A stretch of DNA of 47,198 nucleotides from a virus. Position numbers and translations under genes: made by a program. Positions 1-40,463 of this stretch are shown in pieces; position 1 is the stretch's first letter; each line of letters opens with the position of its first letter. The stretch spans positions 1 through 47,198 of IMG/VR virus record IMGVR_UViG_3300024352_000038, one strand, 5' to 3'. The notes under the pieces are model-generated. The model did no database searches and was not told the origin of the DNA. It saw only the letters and a list, made by a program, of their open reading frames with translations.

Positions 1-1435
1 CAGCACCAGCAAGTATCGGTCTACCTGCGGCGTCCACACCAGGGCTATATCGACCACCAAGGTTCAGGCGCTGTAGTCCCTCATCACCGTAAGGCGTGAT
101 TTCTGACTCTATTGGACGAGCTGGTCTACCTAATTCACGGGACTGTCGAAGCTCTGTAAGCTTATTCAATGCATAGGCAGGATCTGTAATCTTATTCGCA
201 AATTCAAACGACGCCTTGCCAAGTGGAGTTTCGCCACCAAGCAATGCACCAATCGCGCCATTGAATAGAATCTCCTGCGGAGACAAACCAAAGCCACCCT
301 TAGCTTTTGCCGCTTCACTCTGCTGGTACGATTCGAACATACCTTGCGCGGCTTCGATGGAGCGGTCACCAATGTCGCTGACAGTTGCTTGTACCTGTGT
401 ATTCTTTAGTGCTTTGGTCACACCACGACGGGATATCTGACGTGCGGCCTCACGGATACCGACGCCAGGGATTTTTAGGCTAGGCGCAAAGAATGTAAGG
501 TCTCCGGCAAGTGAACCAGCTTGTGACATCAGTGGGTAATCTGCTGCTAATTGACCTCGATAGTCTTCCTTTGCTTTAAGAGCAGCTGACCCTAACATTA
601 GACCAAAAGCTTTGTCATTGATAGCAGAGTTAATGTCTGTACCAATCGTGCCGCCGCCAGCAGCTCCAAGTAAACCAGCCATAAGGTACGCGGCACCCTT
701 GTATTTCTTAGGTGCTAACGCAGCTGCTAATCCACCGGCTCCACGGAAGCCCAGTGTGCCTCCAAAGATGGTTCCTGGCATAGATGCTATGCGTTCTTGG
801 TAAGGTGTACCAAACGCTTCGCCAGCCGCGATGAGAGGGTTGTTACTTTGTTGGTAGGCCAGACTTGGGTCACCACTTTGTCTTCCTTCAACAAAAGCCT
901 GAATGGGTTTGTAAATACCAGAGATCACGCCAACGCCTGCGTCTGGAAGTTGCTGGAAGCCCGTCTGTAAATCCCGGAATGTATATGGCTGTTCATTCCA
1001 TCGCTGCACGTCGTCGCGCGTATACTTTAACTTATCAAGATAAGCTTCTTCGTCCTCGCGAGTCTTCTGTATCTGTTGTCCAAAGTCTTCTTTGGCAGAC
1101 TGCCTTAGTCCATAGATAGCTTCTGGTGATAGGTCTGGACGATACTCGTTATCAGGCGTAAAGTACTGTCGCTTATCTTGGTCATTGACAAGTTCAATAG
1201 CACGACTTGCTTTGAACTTAGCTAATGTAACTTTGTCCTCGCGTGAAACTAAGCCTTCCTTGAACAGCCTGTCTACATTGCGGGTAAATGATTTGGAAAA
1301 TAAAACGTCATCGTATTGACTACCGTTAGCAATATACTCTCGCGCACCTGCTTTAGTAGTTAAGTCCGGGGAATCCCGCAGAGCCTTAATAGTCGGAGCA
1401 ATTGATTGATATTGTCTAAGTTGACGTTCATTCAT
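1..1435 (-). CDS. Large virion-associated protein, N-terminal part (cut by window edge)
   Basis: The frame is open from an ATG at 1435 to the window edge, about 478 codons with no stop, so the C-terminus lies outside. I do not recognise a family. A Gly/Ala-rich, weakly hydrophobic stretch lies near residues 205-260. The protein is last in the tail module, after two other Ala/Gln-rich proteins, which is where short-tailed phages often encode internal or ejection proteins; that role is inference. No Shine-Dalgarno site precedes the ATG. Instead TACAAT lies six bases upstream, and the start codon sits in the arm of a 38-bp palindrome. Confidence 0.85.
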   Translation of the reverse strand, partial: MNERQLRQYQSIAPTIKALRDSPDLTTKAGAREYIANGSQYDDVLFSKSFTRNVDRLFKEGLVSREDKVTLAKFKASRAIELVNDQDKRQYFTPDNEYRPDLSPEAIYGLRQSAKEDFGQQIQKTREDEEAYLDKLKYTRDDVQRWNEQPYTFRDLQTGFQQLPDAGVGVISGIYKPIQAFVEGRQSGDPSLAYQQSNNPLIAAGEAFGTPYQERIASMPGTIFGGTLGFRGAGGLAAALAPKKYKGAAYLMAGLLGAAGGGTIGTDINSAINDKAFGLMLGSAALKAKEDYRGQLAADYPLMSQAGSLAGDLTFFAPSLKIPGVGIREAARQISRRGVTKALKNTQVQATVSDIGDRSIEAAQGMFESYQQSEAAKAKGGFGLSPQEILFNGAIGALLGGETPLGKASFEFANKITDPAYALNKLTELRQSRELGRPARPIESEITPYGDEGLQRLNLGGRYSPGVDAAGRPILAGA

Positions 1436-34893: not shown

Positions 34894-35445
34894 CTACGCG
34901 ACTTCATTACCCCATACGTCCCAGCCAGGGTACGGTCTACGCGCGAACAACTCGATCTTACGCATGCCCGGATACAACTGATCTATACGCTCATGCACAG
35001 CATCAGGCTTCCTGCTATGCTCCATTCGCGGCGCCATAACTACCTGTCTGACGCTCTCGTCAGACAGCTTCAAAGGCCTACCAGACTTGCAAGGGCTACC
35101 AACCAACACAAGCTCCGTCGTAGGCTTTACAACGCTAGGACGGACGCCCTGCGCGCCCACAGGCGTACCATCCTGCTTCGTCTTCACCCACACAAAGCCA
35201 ACCCCCCTATACGCTAAGCCCCAGCCTCGCAATAAGTCCAGCGCAGCGTCCAGACGCGGACCAGTAGCCCACATAAACACCACGCTGCGCGAATGCAACA
35301 GCTGCTGGACAGGCAACGCCAACAGATCAGCGTCGCTCATCGTTGGGTAGAACTTCGCGGCGGCGCCCCACTTATCCTGGCTACCGCTATACGACCACGG
35401 GGGGTCACACAACACTACGTCATACTGAACGGAAGGGAAATCCAT
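34894..35445 (-). CDS. MT-A70-family N6-adenine DNA methyltransferase, 183 aa
   Basis: The catalytic DPPW motif is at residues 14-17 (VVLCDPPWSYSG), followed by FYPTMSDADLLALP, VVFMWATGP, and late motifs ELVLVGSPCKSGRP and the end PYPGWDVWGNE, the order seen in phage MT-A70 enzymes. It would transfer methyl from SAM to adenine. The start is placed at MDFPS (35445), GAGG six bases upstream. No restriction partner is visible, so it is an orphan, perhaps protecting phage DNA. Confidence 0.88.
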   Translation of the reverse strand: MDFPSVQYDVVLCDPPWSYSGSQDKWGAAAKFYPTMSDADLLALPVQQLLHSRSVVFMWATGPRLDAALDLLRGWGLAYRGVGFVWVKTKQDGTPVGAQGVRPSVVKPTTELVLVGSPCKSGRPLKLSDESVRQVVMAPRMEHSRKPDAVHERIDQLYPGMRKIELFARRPYPGWDVWGNEVA

Positions 35446-35632
35446 ATACACCTCGGTACGTTATAACATGGCTTCTACGGCGGGAGAAAGTCAATTTTGA
35501 GGAGATGTTCCGTAGGCGTGGGGATCGTAAGAAAAAAATAATAAGGGGGCGGGGGCTTGCCATACCCCCCTGCCACACACGGTGTGTGAGGGAGGGAGGG
35601 GAGGGAAGGCACGGCGTCGCGTGCGTAGGGCG

Positions 35633-35776
35633 GCCCGCGGTAGCGGGCTGCTTCTCTTGGAGGGGGAGGCTTCCCCCGAACGGAAGCCATGCGGACGCAT
35701 GGCCGCAGCTCCGCGCGGATGCGCGGGGCTGTAGCTCGCGCGGTAGCGCGATCTATTCCCAGCCGCGGATGCGGCT
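35633..35776. repeat. Cluster of GC-GGNN-GC tetraloop hairpins
   Basis: Perfect 6-bp stems closed by a four-base loop: 35633-35648 (GGTA), 35687-35702 (GGAC), 35711-35726 (GGAT), 35736-35751 (GGTA), 35761-35776 (GGAT), plus a GGCTTCC/GGAAGCC hairpin with a 7-base loop at 35668-35688. Stem sequences differ but every tetraloop hairpin keeps GC on both sides of the loop. Confidence 0.85.
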
Positions 35777-35837
35777 TGTTTGCGTTCCTGTTCAAAAGGC
35801 GGCGGCAGCCGACTTGCGAACAGGAGCATCCATCCCC

Positions 35838-35857
35838 CCAGCAAGTATGCGATACTG
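35838..35857 (+). promoter_or_regulatory. Promoter candidate: GCAAGTAT then GATACT before the 126-aa gene
   Basis: CAGCAAGTATGCGATACTG lies ~40 bases upstream of the ATG at 35897, which has GAAAGGA as ribosome site. The same CAGCARGTATGCGA sequence recurs in the loop of the hairpin at 36762. Confidence 0.5.
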
Positions 35858-35896
35858 TCCCTGTTGGTGGTTGGAACACTCTGAAAGGAAACTAGT

Positions 35897-36277
35897 ATGG
35901 AAAAAGATAGAATGTTTGCTATTTGCCGTGCGGCGAATACCTACTTCAAGAATATCGGTCACATCGACTGGGCGACAGACCGACAGTGCAAGTCATGGAA
36001 TGTGGACTATTGGCGCATAACGCAGTCCGACAATGATTTTGCTGAGCCTACCGCGTACGTTGTCGAATTCGACCTTGCAGTCTTCACCGATTGTGAAGGC
36101 GTAGAAAGTACTTGTGAAGGTACTTGCGACATGGGCGAAAGTGAACAATTCCGCATCCATGTAGAATCCGGTCACGACGCGGAATGTTTGATGAAATACG
36201 CGCTGGCCGACCCAGACTGCTGGATTATGTCCATCAGGTCGGAACCTGATAGCGTGCGAAAGTGGACGACTAGATAG
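35897..36277 (+). CDS. Hypothetical protein, 126 aa
   Basis: First gene of the plus-strand operon. The product is acidic, Cys- and Trp-containing (DCEGVESTCEGTCDMGES), with a C-terminal DPDCWIMSIRSE. No family recognised. The stop is followed within ten bases by a 9-bp-stem GCAA hairpin. Confidence 0.8.
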   Translation: MEKDRMFAICRAANTYFKNIGHIDWATDRQCKSWNVDYWRITQSDNDFAEPTAYVVEFDLAVFTDCEGVESTCEGTCDMGESEQFRIHVESGHDAECLMKYALADPDCWIMSIRSEPDSVRKWTTR

Positions 36278-36286
36278 TTTAGACTG

Positions 36287-36308
36287 CCTGCCCGGGCAAC
36301 CGGGCAGG
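36287..36308 (+). repeat. Intercistronic hairpin with GCAA tetraloop
   Basis: CCTGCCCGG-GCAA-CCGGGCAGG, a perfect 9-bp stem with a GNRA tetraloop, between the stop at 36277 and the ribosome site of the next gene. Only three T follow, so it is more likely an RNA stabiliser, processing site or weak attenuator than a full terminator. Confidence 0.75.
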
Positions 36309-36329
36309 TTTGAAGGAAAGGAAAGTAGA

Positions 36330-36617
36330 ATGAAACTCAAAACAATTGCAGGATTAGACGGGTACGAATTTGCTGGTGCTATCAGCAAGGCGACAGATAA
36401 CGCGGAAATTGCCGAAGCGGCATATCAGCGTGCTAGAAATGCCAAACATAACGCCAATTATCAAATTGAATGTCCGACAGTCTTTATCAGCGAAGCGGCC
36501 GCGGATTGGGATACTGTAATTTCATTGTCTGATATTCGCGCATTGGTAGCAAGCGTTGAAATTATCGCCGCAGAAAACGGTATCTTGCTGCCGCAGAATT
36601 GGCAGGTAATCTATTGA
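36330..36617 (+). CDS. Hypothetical protein, 95 aa
   Basis: Ala-rich helical start (EIAEAAYQRARNAKHN) then a beta/helical end with ISLSDIRALVASVEII. No family is recognised. Preceded by AAGGAAAG and followed by a one-base overlap (TGATG) with a 34-aa membrane peptide gene. Confidence 0.8.
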   Translation: MKLKTIAGLDGYEFAGAISKATDNAEIAEAAYQRARNAKHNANYQIECPTVFISEAAADWDTVISLSDIRALVASVEIIAAENGILLPQNWQVIY

Positions 36618-36721
36618 TGCGGCGGAATAGCCCGGGCAACCGGGCTAGACTTCGCGAGTTTATAGGTTTTGTTCTAATATTCGCGCTCGTAGTATTGGCC
36701 AGTGGCCTAAATAACAATTGA
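36617..36721 (+). CDS. 34-aa single-span membrane peptide
   Basis: The ATG overlaps the preceding stop (TGATG) and AGG is 11 bases upstream. A basic N-terminus is followed by the span FIGFVLIFALVVLASGL (about 15-31). The GCAA hairpin at 36628-36647 lies inside the early codons. The operon terminator follows within ten bases. Real translation is likely but not certain. Confidence 0.55.
   Translation: MRRNSPGNRARLREFIGFVLIFALVVLASGLNNN
36628..36647 (+). repeat. Second GCAA-loop hairpin, inside the 34-aa gene
   Basis: TAGCCCGG-GCAA-CCGGGCTA, 8-bp perfect stem. Its loop and inner stem match the hairpins at 36287 and 36730. Confidence 0.75.
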
Positions 36722-36729
36722 AACTTTAC

Positions 36730-36753
36730 AGCCCGGGCGACCGGGCTTTTTTT
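36730..36753 (+). terminator. Rho-independent terminator, GCGA loop
   Basis: AGCCCGG-GCGA-CCGGGCT followed by TTTTTT. It closes the operon from 35897 and belongs to the same CCGG-GCRA-CCGG hairpin family as the intercistronic ones. Confidence 0.88.
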
Positions 36754-36761
36754 CCGGCCGG

Positions 36762-36798
36762 CCATTGAAGCCCAGCAGGTATGCGAGGGCTTCAATGG
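36762..36798. repeat. 12-bp perfect hairpin with a GCAGGTAT motif in its loop
   Basis: CCATTGAAGCCC and GGGCTTCAATGG flank the 13-base loop AGCAGGTATGCGA. Apart from one base the loop equals the motif at 35840-35852 in the upstream promoter. It overlaps a GGCCGGCC site and follows the terminator directly. Confidence 0.8.
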
Positions 36799-36956
36799 TG
36801 AGAGTAAAAGACAGTGTCACAAAGTGACGGCCTGATTATTTGTAGATAATAGAATCAATATTAGACTCCACAAAAATAGTAATAGTAACCACGCGCTCCA
36901 CTATATAGATCCATATACACATACACACATCGTTCTCTCAACCCTTTCAGTGGCGC

Positions 36957-37302
36957 GTAGCGCTGCGGATGCAGCGGTACGCAGGTCGCGTCCTTCCTCC
37001 CAGCTTTCTTCTACACAGGGCGTAGGTGGCGCGTGTGCGTCGCGGTAGCGTCCACATGCAGTGGGCGGTTGTGCTTTGCGAAGCGTAGGCGGTGCCTGGG
37101 ATCAGGTATAGCCGTAGCGCAGCAGCTTCTCAATTCCCTCGCCGGGCAGTCGCCGGGCAACACATACACGCAGGTAAGCGGGTGCCTCGCCGGGCCGCGC
37201 GGGGCGCCGCGGTAGCGGCGTCCTGCGGCTGCGCGGAGCGCTGCGGATGCAGCGGTCTGCACCCCGCGGTAGCGGGGTTAGCACATAGCTGCGCGGATGC
37301 GC
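36957..37302. repeat. Second cluster of GC-GGNN-GC tetraloop hairpins
   Basis: 36961-36976 (CGCTGC-GGAT), 37205-37220 (CGCCGC-GGTA), 37239-37254 (CGCTGC-GGAT, identical core to the first), 37261-37278 (7-bp stem, GGTA) and a shorter one at 37291-37302 (GGAT). A three-base-stem relative with GGTA lies near 37040. Confidence 0.85.
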
Positions 37303-37460
37303 GGGTATGTATTCGGGGGCCTCACAATTTGCTGTCGCTGTGCTATCCCCCTTGATGCGTTACACAAAGCGTGGAGTAGGGAAAAGGATCGCGAAGCGCA
37401 CATACTTCTTCTCGGCAGCAGTGCGCCCACGCTCGCCTACCTGATTGCGTACTGTTCGTA

Positions 37461-37646
37461 GTGGGGGCAGATCGTATAGACACAAGCCTAAGCGTGGAAG
37501 CACGTCAGCTGCCGGGAAAAATTTTTTGGCCTTTCTGGGGGGAGTCTGGCCAGTTGTCGTACTGCACTAGGTCGCGCGCAATTGTGGAGGGCGCGCGCTT
37601 GGGCTGGCCGTTGGGGTTGTTCGGGCTGTCGATCGTGTCGCGCTAG
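37461..37646 (+). CDS. Doubtful 61-aa frame
   Basis: A GTG-initiated frame without a ribosome site; TACTGT ends five bases before the GTG, the same geometry as the predicted leaderless starts. The product is Trp/Gly/Leu-containing with no recognisable domain. It may be a chance frame in a G+C-rich tract. Confidence 0.25.
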   Translation: MGADRIDTSLSVEARQLPGKIFWPFWGESGQLSYCTRSRAIVEGARLGWPLGLFGLSIVSR

Positions 37647-37761
37647 GTGGTGCGGGTATGTGGCAATTTCGCTGTTGGCTACGTTCGCGCAACCTTGTTG
37701 CATTCTTTCGCGAAGCTCCGCGCGTTTTACACTCCGTTTGTCCGATTGCGTCCACTTGTCG

Positions 37762-37767
37762 TATACT
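37762..37767 (+). promoter_or_regulatory. -10 candidate TATACT before the 103-aa membrane gene
   Basis: TATACT followed by a ~40-base leader with GAAGGGTAA before the ATG at 37812. No clear -35; CTTGTCG precedes it. It would serve the operon 37812-39932. Confidence 0.45.
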
Positions 37768-37811
37768 GTGCTGTGCCTGCGGCGTTGCAGGCCTGAAGGG
37801 TAATAGATCCA

Positions 37812-38123
37812 ATGTTTGATTATCTTACGCGCGCGGAAGTTACGCGGCTGGCTGTCCGGCTGGCGTGGTACGCGCTCTGCTTGCTTGGTTGTTTGTTTGC
37901 CGTTGGGTTGTGTTGTGCGTCCATTCTGGGGGCGTTTGATGTACCGGGCGTTATTCCATCGGATCGCATTAAATACGCGCGCGTTGCGTTGTTGGTGTTG
38001 TCTGGCATGGCGTCCATGGGGGCGTGGTGGTCAATCGATGACGCGCTCCGCGGCGCGGCGTTTCTGTCGTTTGGCCGTGGTTTGTCCCTGCGTGCGCGGG
38101 GTGTAAAGGGTGCAGGTAATTAG
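37812..38123 (+). CDS. Two-span membrane protein, 103 aa
   Basis: Hydrophobic spans at about residues 12-40 (LAVRLAWYALCLLGCLFAVG) and 57-72 (ALLVLSGMASMGAW), with a basic C-terminus. No family is recognised. First gene of a G+C-rich four- to five-gene operon. Confidence 0.7.
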   Translation: MFDYLTRAEVTRLAVRLAWYALCLLGCLFAVGLCCASILGAFDVPGVIPSDRIKYARVALLVLSGMASMGAWWSIDDALRGAAFLSFGRGLSLRARGVKGAGN

Positions 38124-38992: not shown

Positions 38993-39818
38993 ACGCGAAT
39001 TACCGGTTTTCACCGATTCGGTGATACCTAAAAGCGGGATAAGTTCCAACGGTAAACTGGGCGGCTGTGGCGCTACCTATCGCGCGGTTGGTTGCGGCGT
39101 CGCGTCTGGTACCTGTCCGGCTACTTGTTCCTATCTTCCAGAGTCCGCAGGCGGTTTGCCTGCGGCGCTTTGGTCGGCGCGTCTGGTAGCGGGGGCGGCA
39201 GGTTTTCCGGCCGTGCAGGCGGCCGCGCTAGAATGGGCGGCGGATCTGGCCGCAGGGCGTGCCAAGCTTGATAGGTGTTACGTCTTGGGGGCGCCTGCGG
39301 AATTCTCCGCGCGGCGCGCGCCGGGGTTGGATTCGTCCACGGGTTTGATTCCGGGCGGGCTTGATGTGCGTTTGCACGTTAGCGGGGATTTCCTCCGGGC
39401 AGATAGGCGGTTTGATGCGGCGCGTCTTACCCGTTGTATTGATTGGGAATATGTCGATCGCGTTTGCGAATTTGCCGCTATGCATCGCGGCCGCTGTTGG
39501 GTTTATACTCACGTTCATTCGGTGCGGTTGTGGCGTACGCTGTCGGCCGCAGGCGTGCAGGTTTGGATTTCCTGCGACACTATGCGGCAGGCGGCGCGGT
39601 GGGTCAAGCGTGGCGCGTGCGTTACCATGGGCGGCCGTCTTAGTTACTTGCAGGCCGTGCGGCAGGCTTTCCGGGGTTTGTCTGTACCGGTGCGCTTTTG
39701 TCCTTGGGATCTAAGCAAGGTGAAAATGGGCGAAGCTCCGCGCGCGATTACTTGCAGGTCTTGCCGTTTATGCATCGATGATATAGCGGCGCGTGTGATT
39801 CTGTTCGTTAGTCATTAG
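38985..39818 (+). CDS. Gp88-like phage protein, 277 aa
   Basis: The start is MSRRE (38985), overlapping the preceding gene by 8 bases. Near residue 125 DVRLHVSGDF is followed ~50 residues later by WVYTHVHSVRLW and WISCDT; this resembles the Gp88 family of mycobacteriophages (arginine-leucine-His-x-Ser-Gly-Asp-Phe). Cysteines near residues 38-43 (TCPATC) and at the end (CRSCRLC) could bind metal. Function of the family is not established. Confidence 0.5.
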   Translation: MSRRELPVFTDSVIPKSGISSNGKLGGCGATYRAVGCGVASGTCPATCSYLPESAGGLPAALWSARLVAGAAGFPAVQAAALEWAADLAAGRAKLDRCYVLGAPAEFSARRAPGLDSSTGLIPGGLDVRLHVSGDFLRADRRFDAARLTRCIDWEYVDRVCEFAAMHRGRCWVYTHVHSVRLWRTLSAAGVQVWISCDTMRQAARWVKRGACVTMGGRLSYLQAVRQAFRGLSVPVRFCPWDLSKVKMGEAPRAITCRSCRLCIDDIAARVILFVSH

Positions 39819-39827
39819 GGGGCGCGC

Positions 39828-39932
39828 GTGTTATTACTAGCAATTGATGTATCGGCGGCCATTTTGGGGGCTGTGCTGTGTGCTGTTGGGTCTTGCTGGC
39901 TGTGGGATATTCTCCGGCCGCGTCGGCGGTAG
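39828..39932 (+). CDS. 34-aa membrane peptide, GTG start
   Basis: GTG at 39828 preceded by AGGGGGCG at ribosome-site distance and open to TAG at 39932. The product begins with the span LLLAIDVSAAILGAVLCAVG and ends LRPRRR, a typical inside-positive single-span peptide. It lies between the Gp88-like gene and a terminator. Confidence 0.5.
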   Translation: MLLLAIDVSAAILGAVLCAVGSCWLWDILRPRRR

Positions 39933-39954
39933 TAGTTGGGGATCTGCCGCTATA

Positions 39955-39982
39955 GGTCGCGCGTATGCGCGGCCTTTTTTTT
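39955..39982 (+). terminator. Rho-independent terminator
   Basis: GGTCGCGC-GTAT-GCGCGGCC (one G-T pair) followed by eight T. It ends the 37812-39932 operon. Confidence 0.88.
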
Positions 39983-40068
39983 GCGCGGGTATCTTCCAGC
40001 CTTGCAAGTATTGCCGCGGCATTTGTGGCCGCGTTTGCTTCGATCGCGTTTCCATTCCGGGCGGCGGC

Positions 40069-40139
40069 GTCTTGTCCTGGCGAATTGTTGCCGTCGCGTT
40101 TTGGGCGCTTGGGTCTTGTCCTGGCGAATTGTTACCGTC
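40069..40139. repeat. 27-bp direct repeat, 44-bp period
   Basis: GTCTTGTCCTGGCGAATTGT followed by TRCCGTC occurs at 40069-40095 and 40113-40139 with a single base difference. The two copies lie in the gene-free stretch upstream of a promoter and could be protein-binding iterons or a local duplication. Confidence 0.85.
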
Positions 40140-40358
40140 AAGCTTTGAGCCGTGGCGGCAGGTTTCGCGCTTGCGCGTACCTGTCGCGCGGCCTTCGCGC
40201 GGATCTCGCGCGGTGATTTCCACCTTGCGCAATTTAGGCAGCTCTAACCTATCCGCCCAGATTCCGGCCCACCGATTCTAGGGAAAATTCCGGCCGGCCT
40301 CCCGGCCACCCGCCTGCGGCGCATTGTTGCGGCTCTTCGGGCCGCCCACCACACACAC

Positions 40359-40369
40359 GCAAGTATAAA
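40359..40369 (+). promoter_or_regulatory. Promoter candidate GCAAG-TATAAA
   Basis: GCAAGTATAAA lies ~95 bases upstream of the ATG at 40464. The leader contains the inverse motif TATACCTGCGGG near 40425 and GAAAGG as ribosome site. Confidence 0.5.
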
Positions 40370-40463
40370 GTTAACTATTGCCGTTGAAAAATTGGCCCTT
40401 TTATGTGAAACTACATTTGGGTTTTATACCTGCGGGTTCCATTCCCACTGAAAGGTTATTAGC

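Follow-up and report, generated by a model that had tools for sequence, protein, structure and literature searches.

The DNA analysed here (hereafter the window) comprises all 47,198 nt of the virus record IMGVR_UViG_3300024352_000038, whose matches to a terminase large subunit, a portal, and a major head protein identify it as part of a tailed phage. It contains two clusters of short GC-rich hairpins (35633–35776 and 36961–37302), each of which belongs to a larger structured stretch (array 1 and array 2; Table 1). Array 1 stands between divergent genes, a leftward methyltransferase gene and a rightward open reading frame (ORF) starting at 35897, and two rightward ORFs (35897–36277 and 36330–36617) stand between the two clusters.

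Three contigs (G001–G003) that match the window at an identity of at least 99.99% were counted as the same genome. One of them (G001; 56,064 nt) spans both window ends at 99.997–100% identity and adds 13 kb absent from the window, with an initiator-like gene, a DnaB-type helicase, and most of the gene of a 3301-aa protein; the composite genome measures ~60.2 kb. A sister phage (G004) is 79.9% identical over 35,401 aligned positions outside the arrays. Relatives with a common gene order were found as IMG/VR contigs. Phage records gave no match to the window DNA at 35460–37500 (distant mode) and 1–25000 (near mode), and four weak matches (E 0.9–3) to 37300–37560. The terminase matched 26 phage records, the best 12 of which are 27–32% identical over about one-third of the protein.

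The first-pass annotation had listed the positions of ten hairpins with a GGWN loop enclosed by GC on either side. All ten are present, and their positions hold except that hairpin 3, placed at 35687, starts at 35686 and has a 7-bp stem; hairpin 11 has a Watson–Crick stem of 4 bp that is lengthened by a T·G pair. With a stem of at least 4 bp, the region 35460–37500 contains ten such hairpins against a mean of 0.05 (maximum 2) in shuffled sequences, and the density is not reproduced by composition, as none of 1000 shuffles reaches ten. With stems of at least 6 bp, there are nine hairpins against 0.005 in shuffles, and the entire window holds ten against 0.55 (0 of 60 shuffles). Loops in the first cluster follow each other at distances of 24–29 nt if the GGCT hairpin is included. 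Further related hairpins are located at 35662 (GGCT, A–T closed), 35800 (GGCA), 37042 (GGTA, three pairs only), and 37095 (GGAT, G–C closed); these four were compared only with the sister phage and are included neither in the covariance model (R1) nor in the count of 20 hairpins below.

Model R1, trained on the ten window hairpins and nine from the sister phage (all but its copy of hairpin 1), yields seven matches in the window at E < 1e-3, all of them training members located in the clusters, which bears out the earlier description of a localised family. The three remaining window members of the training set score poorly (E 0.024–0.37) because their outer stem is poor. Outside the clusters, a single match falls below E 0.01 (39951–39978, E 0.0026), and this hairpin, which has a GTAT loop and is followed by T8, is an intrinsic terminator. 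The terminator lies in a third GC-rich stretch (39820–40463), which has doubtful ORFs, a repeated CTTGTCCTGGCGAATTGTT block, and a folding z-score of only −1.26.

Table 1 Features of the two hairpin arrays and their surroundings (positions in the window)
Feature	Position	Strand	Remarks
Array 1	35540–35830	+	Noncoding structured stretch, near-contiguous chain of hairpins; extent inferred
Hairpin 1	35633–35648	+	Loop GGTA; outer pairs G·T, C–G, G–C
Hairpin 2	35662–35677	+	Loop GGCT, closed by A–T; related, not GC-ended
Hairpin 3	35686–35703	+	Loop GGAC; GTAT in sister phage
Hairpin 4	35711–35726	+	Loop GGAT; 11-bp stem, pair 7 T·G (G·T in sister phage)
Hairpin 5	35736–35751	+	Loop GGTA
Hairpin 6	35761–35776	+	Loop GGAT
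Long hairpin ending array 1	35785–35826	+	Loop GGCA; GG-A in sister phage
Intrinsic terminator	36730–36753	+	Loop GCGA, T run; parts the small ORFs from array 2
Array 2	36945–37527	+	Predicted noncoding RNA, ~580 nt; 5' end uncertain
Hairpin 7	36961–36976	+	Loop GGAT (GGTA in sister phage); pair 7 G·G; 5-bp outer stem
Hairpin 8	37205–37220	+	Loop GGTA; outer stem with two G–C to A–T double changes and two G·T lost in sister phage
Hairpin 9	37239–37254	+	Loop GGAT (GGTA in sister phage); pair 7 G·G
Hairpin 10	37261–37278	+	Loop GGTA; 7 bp
Hairpin 11	37291–37302	+	Loop GGAT (GGTA in sister phage)
3' domain of array-2 RNA	37413–37527	+	~100-nt long-range hairpin, then T6 at 37522–37527; terminator-like

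The 20 main hairpins (ten units in each of the two genomes; a first count of 19 agrees) reveal a unit larger than first described: in most members, the stem continues outward past a weak pair 7 by as many as five pairs. As RNA, the module would consist of an outer stem, the weak pair 7, a 6-bp stem ending in GC, and a loop that is mostly GG[AU][UA]. Pair 7 is G·G in seven hairpins, G·T or T·G in five, C·T in four, and Watson–Crick in four, whereas the innermost pair is C–G in all 20 and the next one G–C in 19 (G·T once). Each loop is closed by this C–G pair and reads GGTA (11), GGAT (7), GGAC (1), or GTAT (1); the loop rule GG[AT][ATC] proposed earlier thus describes 19 of the 20 hairpins and fails for one loop of the sister phage. 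Between the window and the sister phage, three loops of array 2 switch from GGAT to GGTA and one loop of array 1 from GGAC to GTAT. The six array-2 loops closed by C–G are all GGTA in the sister phage and are evenly divided between GGTA and GGAT (three each) in the window.

There is evidence for a conservation of pairing between the two genomes. In the helices, whose limits were set by judgement, the window and the sister phage differ by nine Watson–Crick double changes, one U·G to G·U inversion, and six one-sided changes that all pass through G·T on the + strand and never through A·C; a second such inversion is located in the outer helix of the long hairpin that ends array 1 (T·G to G·T). Two Watson–Crick double changes each occur in hairpin 2 and in hairpin 11, which together with its T·G, C–G, and G·G (pair 7) and its outer stem extends over 37283–37310, and hairpin 1 shows one double change (C–G to G–C) and one change from G–C to G·T. 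Among stems of at least 5 bp defined in the window, the 342 changed pairs outside the arrays comprise 19 Watson–Crick double changes, 66 G·T, 104 A·C, and 153 broken pairs; by the same criterion, the eight changed pairs inside the arrays comprise five double changes and three G·T, with no A·C and no broken pair. Stems defined in the sister phage give three double changes in array 1.

The same picture emerges from the alignment of the 20 hairpins, in which 88.6% of the pair cells are paired, against 61.7% in shuffles (0 of 500 as high) and 24–47% in versions slid against each other. The six inner pairs are formed in all 120 cells (115 Watson–Crick, 5 G·T, no A·C), and the 100 outer cells comprise 63 Watson–Crick, 12 G·T, 3 A·C, and 22 other combinations. 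Double changes affect 62 cells, against 21.7 in shuffles (0 of 500). All 14 loops examined are found at the same places in both genomes, although one has lost a loop base, and no unit was gained or lost among them despite an overall identity of 80%. Both arrays contain indels of one or two bases, which speaks against a conserved reading frame. This comparison of one genome pair and of paralogous units demonstrates that pairing in the predicted helices is kept while the sequence changes, and that array 2 lies in a conserved noncoding island. The initial proposal that structure rather than sequence is conserved is therefore supported, as is a role as RNA structure, by covariation and noncoding indels in two genomes; of the two signs of evolution to be sought in a relative, covariation was seen, and gain or loss of units was not.

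The island around array 2 stands out from its surroundings. Identity to the sister phage is 83% at 36945–37315, 77% at 37316–37412, and 94% at 37413–37527, compared with 39% (indel-rich) directly to the left and 51% directly to the right; the nucleotide identity of the two intervening ORFs is 47% and 51%. Identity is again high (87%) at 36761–36850, where a promoter of array 2 could be located. The consensus fold of array 2 in the two genomes comprises 168 pairs, seven of them double-changed, and its z-scores are −3.8 in the window and −5.0 in the sister phage (20 shuffles each). The 3' domain forms a consensus helix with few varying pairs, and a model of this domain detects only the window and the sister phage among 38 sources (E < 0.01). 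Upstream of array 2, a stretch fully conserved in the sister phage contains the palindrome GTCACAAAGTGAC (36816–36828), which could be a repressor site.

Array 1 is 91% identical to its counterpart in the sister phage (three 1-nt gaps), but since the methyltransferase gene is equally conserved (92%), this conservation is not special. Array 1 has no 3' domain with a T run like that of array 2. A GGGAGGGAGGGGAGGG run at 35590–35605, the last run of which is shorter in the sister phage, directly precedes the first hairpin and is a possible G-quadruplex.

For the predicted helices, the genome pair and the paralogs also establish the + strand as the pairing strand, because G·T pairs prevail over A·C pairs (5:0 in the inner and 12:3 in the outer stems). 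Fold scores do not decide the strand: z-scores for 35600–35860 are −4.63 for RNA of the + strand, −5.16 for RNA of the − strand, and −6.20 for DNA of the + strand, and the respective values for array 2 are −2.97, −2.03, and −3.49. The molecule is probably RNA, in view of the G·U pairs, the two U·G to G·U inversions, the 3' domain with U6, and the family-like hairpin that serves as intrinsic terminator; G·U pairs are ordinary in RNA, and inversions of this kind are typical of RNA covariation. That the hairpins belong to two noncoding RNAs transcribed rightward, each predicted to present one module five to seven times, has about an even chance.

Several observations weigh against such RNAs. As RNA, the − strand of array 1 folds no less well than the + strand. 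Motif reading, on which all statements on promoters rest, identified no promoter upstream of array 1; the promoter-like sites for ORF 35897 (at 35841) and ORF 37812 (at 37762) are found on the downstream side of the arrays, and the frequency of such sites does not exceed that in shuffles (three found, 2.0 expected). Five outer pairs are lost in the sister phage: two G·T pairs in the outer stem of 37211 become G·G, and the end pairs of 35639, 35742, and 37245 meet a one-base gap. Stems defined in the sister phage include two broken pairs in array 2. Counted by pairs that show a double change, the 20 hairpins do not surpass shuffles (173 of 500). They include paralogs and are hence not independent, and because only two distinct genomes are available, the covariation amounts to a single comparison of genomes supplemented by paralogs; for some double changes (37245), one gene-conversion event is a possible source. 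Moreover, none of the 20 array loops belongs to the RNA-stabilising GNRA or UNCG classes, whereas the neighbouring intergenic hairpins at 36289, 36629, and 36730 have GNRA loops in both the window (GCAA, GCAA, and GCGA) and the sister phage (GAAA). The array loops therefore seem to be kept for something other than RNA stability.

The loops would fit hairpins of single-stranded DNA of the + strand, or extruded cruciforms, that are recognised by a protein in DNA entry, replication, or transcription, as in the promoters of phage N4. All 20 main loops, with their C–G closing pair, conform to cGNNAg or cGNABg on the + strand only, the classes of stable DNA tetraloops reportedly described by Nakano in 2002, and the switches from GGAT to GGTA and from GGAC to GTAT remain within these classes. 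In both arrays, the + strand also has lower z-scores as DNA than as RNA. By contrast, the many G·T pairs and the two inversions are usual in RNA but weak in DNA, array 2 has a 3' domain with T6, and one family-like hairpin is an RNA terminator. Furthermore, two minor members (GGCT closed by A–T and GGAT closed by G–C) fall outside the DNA motifs, and GGAA, an equally good DNA loop, does not occur. On balance, we regard DNA hairpins as fairly unlikely. In a quite unlikely variant of the RNA reading, each array would be the leader of an early transcription unit and cause antitermination by acting on RNA polymerase in cis, like put of phage HK022. The put element has two stem-loops rather than five to seven. 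Rightward genes follow both arrays, which lie on the sense strand of these genes, and put RNA of HK022 is reported to act in the nascent transcript (PMC9378689). However, motif reading places a probable promoter downstream of array 1, and the U6 tract at the end of array 2 precedes the promoter-like TATACT of the next gene.

Palindromes without function, selfish or driven by mutation (of REP-, MITE-, or GC-cluster-like type) and maintained as perfect repeats through template switching or gene conversion, would explain the paralogous look of the units: the 38-nt blocks at 36953 and 37231 agree to 84%, the sister copy at 37245 resembles its neighbour at 37211, and three array-2 loops changed alike. 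Palindromes of the REP and GC-cluster type are short and GC-rich, with varied stems in gene-free DNA, and in this respect resemble the hairpins of the arrays. Unlike them, the arrays show no dispersal, no gain or loss of units between two genomes that are 80% alike, and a terminator as the sole R1 match in the window outside the clusters below E 0.01; strand-biased G·T intermediates are not expected from a repair of palindromes at the DNA level. A Y1 transposase (PF01797) was detected in none of three records (8 of 14 control genomes were positive). The earlier suggestion of spreading repeats now appears improbable and is not supported, given the occupation of the same sites in both genomes, the lack of this transposase in the three records, and the lack of such an array elsewhere among the scanned matches listed. 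The arrays are even less plausible as part of a replication origin. The cumulative GC skew of the composite genome has its minimum at 35454, but this turn coincides with a switch in gene direction, and three palindromic iterons of 24 bp in tandem, with AT-rich DNA after them, are located elsewhere, inside the initiator-like gene (L317:4725–4796, on a sister contig past the right end of the window). In origins of the lambda-O type, the initiator gene itself contains iterons and AT-rich DNA, and the sequence of this site marks it as a probable member of the type; the origin elements suggested for the arrays probably lie at another place.

Promoters of the N4 type, which serve a virion RNA polymerase, are short hairpins with a loop that is closed by C–G and has G first and A last (PMC4496689). 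The array loops resemble them in this G...A type and in the asymmetry between the strands, and the phage encodes a giant protein of 3301 aa. Yet this protein has no match to a phage RNA polymerase in Pfam, PHROGs, or PDB, nor when used as an eight-member profile, whose weak matches include bacterial RNAP beta' (E 0.58) in a coiled-coil part; the motifs looked for in the protein were not found. The phage polymerase family PF00940 was absent from three records but also from all control genomes, which adds nothing. The N4 promoter is distinguished by a 3-nt loop on the template strand of the genes downstream, whereas the loops of the arrays have 4 nt and the pairing strand is the coding strand of the adjoining ORFs; as template-strand hairpins, they would direct transcription to the left, antisense to the ORFs on that side of array 2, and they are clustered rather than single. 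Identity with N4 promoters is exceedingly unlikely.

A sponge RNA for CsrA/RsmA is just as remote. Like CsrB and RsmZ, for which G-rich loops in one repeated hairpin type are reported (PMC7652899), the arrays repeat one hairpin, and eight of 20 loops contain GGA. The other 12 loops do not, and the three array-2 GGAT loops are GGTA in the sister phage, and this identity was rejected on the loop counts; moreover, known CsrA ligands are, according to the same source, mostly six-base loops on short stems (PMC7652899), in contrast to the 4-nt loops on long stable stems found here. Loop–loop kissing (GGUA with UACC, GGAU with AUCC), for which candidate partners were found by eye only, was dropped because three GGAT loops changed while an AUCC in array 2 did not. 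A retron was rejected because reverse transcriptase (PF00078) is absent from three records (4 of 14 control genomes were positive).

Broader likenesses exist among phage RNAs. GOLLD and ROOL are large and highly structured noncoding phage RNAs of unknown function (PMC12286853); the arrays, as predicted from sequence, share the size and structure but repeat a single module. Genes of GOLLD and ROOL often have tRNAs nearby, whereas no tRNA was found in the window. A search of the window against Rfam returned no match at gathering score, and five weak matches (E 1.2–9.4) at E ≤ 10 in 35400–37850, none convincing and none to GOLLD or ROOL. By description, the arrays with their predicted RNAs also resemble the ORF-less gap of ~1 kb in phage ICP1, which is reported to yield an abundant transcript of ~800 nt (PMC7567579), and put of HK022, a structured RNA that opens early phage transcription (PMC9378689), from which they differ by their many units and by the U-tract of array 2.

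Arrays of distinct hairpins were found only in the species of the window and the sister phage in scripted screens of up to 581 loci, which used differing criteria and loci. Pattern scans of viral contigs returned at least 119, at least 120, and at least 120 stretches in three cases and 8 and 4 in two others, and other carriers may exist. In genome contigs, the pattern GGAT-GGTA-GGAT with gaps of 8–38 occurs in 91 stretches (80 of the 91 listed); among 40 matches listed for genome loci numbered 180 or higher, no array was found. The nearest genome locus among the matches listed (L221) has one GGAT and one GGAA hairpin ~380 nt apart. In the scripted screens, L107 showed a pair of such hairpins at a distance of 5 kb, and at five loci a single unit is repeated identically in tandem. 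Two other viral contigs, at L435:14449 and L372:5853 (reverse-strand count), carry short tandem repeats of an identical hairpin unit with a GGTA loop, which differ in layout. The covariance scan that had been proposed recovered the clusters in the window; in 37 pieces of 15 records of relatives, at E ≤ 5, it matched only the sister phage (seven matches), with several records being fragments and one (G022) ending at the locus. Three relatives, G027 (L327), G029 (L330), and G028 (L593), have repeated hairpins in the matching region that look intergenic and carry TTCG or GAAA loops on the − strand. A GGUA or GGAU tetraloop or loop was not found in the literature searched, which does not show that there is none in print.

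Other features of the region deserve mention. The methyltransferase gene (34894–35451, − strand) encodes a DNA methyltransferase with a DPPW motif, presumably of the MT-A70 type, which is 95–96% identical in the sister phage and 55–69% identical in loci where no array was found. The two small ORFs in 35897–36617 diverge fast (37% identity over 66 aa and 36% over 95 aa to the sister phage), with well-conserved noncoding arrays on both flanks; the first has two matches in the sister phage. Contigs of the phage group break at ~37.7–39.5 kb (G002 at 37733, G004 near 37.7 kb, and G001 at 39511), adjoining genes without match in the relatives searched. The motif GCARGTAT recurs (28498, 43715, 35841, 36775, 34868, and others), often at gene boundaries, and reads GCARGTATAAT in two places, like an extended −10 element; it is a possible phage promoter element. 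The gene of the 3301-aa protein (L317:8081–17986, − strand) starts inside the window (1–1435); the protein has an HEVVH motif, a conserved C-terminal part, and relatives in several phages of the family, but no relative of note in Pfam, PHROGs, or PDB.

If the arrays are transcribed into noncoding RNAs, the array-1 RNA would measure ~290 nt and the array-2 RNA ~580 nt, at the head of a variable region that is early to judge from gene order. One hairpin shown five to seven times per RNA suggests multivalent binding: the repetition would serve to bind several copies of one RNA-binding protein of host or phage, or self-assembly. Provided that the molecule is RNA, a function as scaffold or sponge early in infection is a guess to which we give somewhat less than an even chance. 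The concerted switch of the array-2 loops in one lineage looks as if the preference of the partner had changed. Only tentatively, and with considerable doubt, can the arrays be proposed as a new phage RNA class whose members are built by repetition, with two early RNAs that would show a ~28-nt module five to seven times each and would sequester one protein of host or phage or assemble. If the hairpins act as DNA instead, they would represent a hairpin recognition system in a phage in which no N4-type polymerase was found. Large structured phage RNAs, such as GOLLD, ROOL, and the ICP1 transcript, are striking but mostly without assigned function; a repeated module whose loop has switched between sister phages offers a small, testable ligand for finding its protein or RNA partner.

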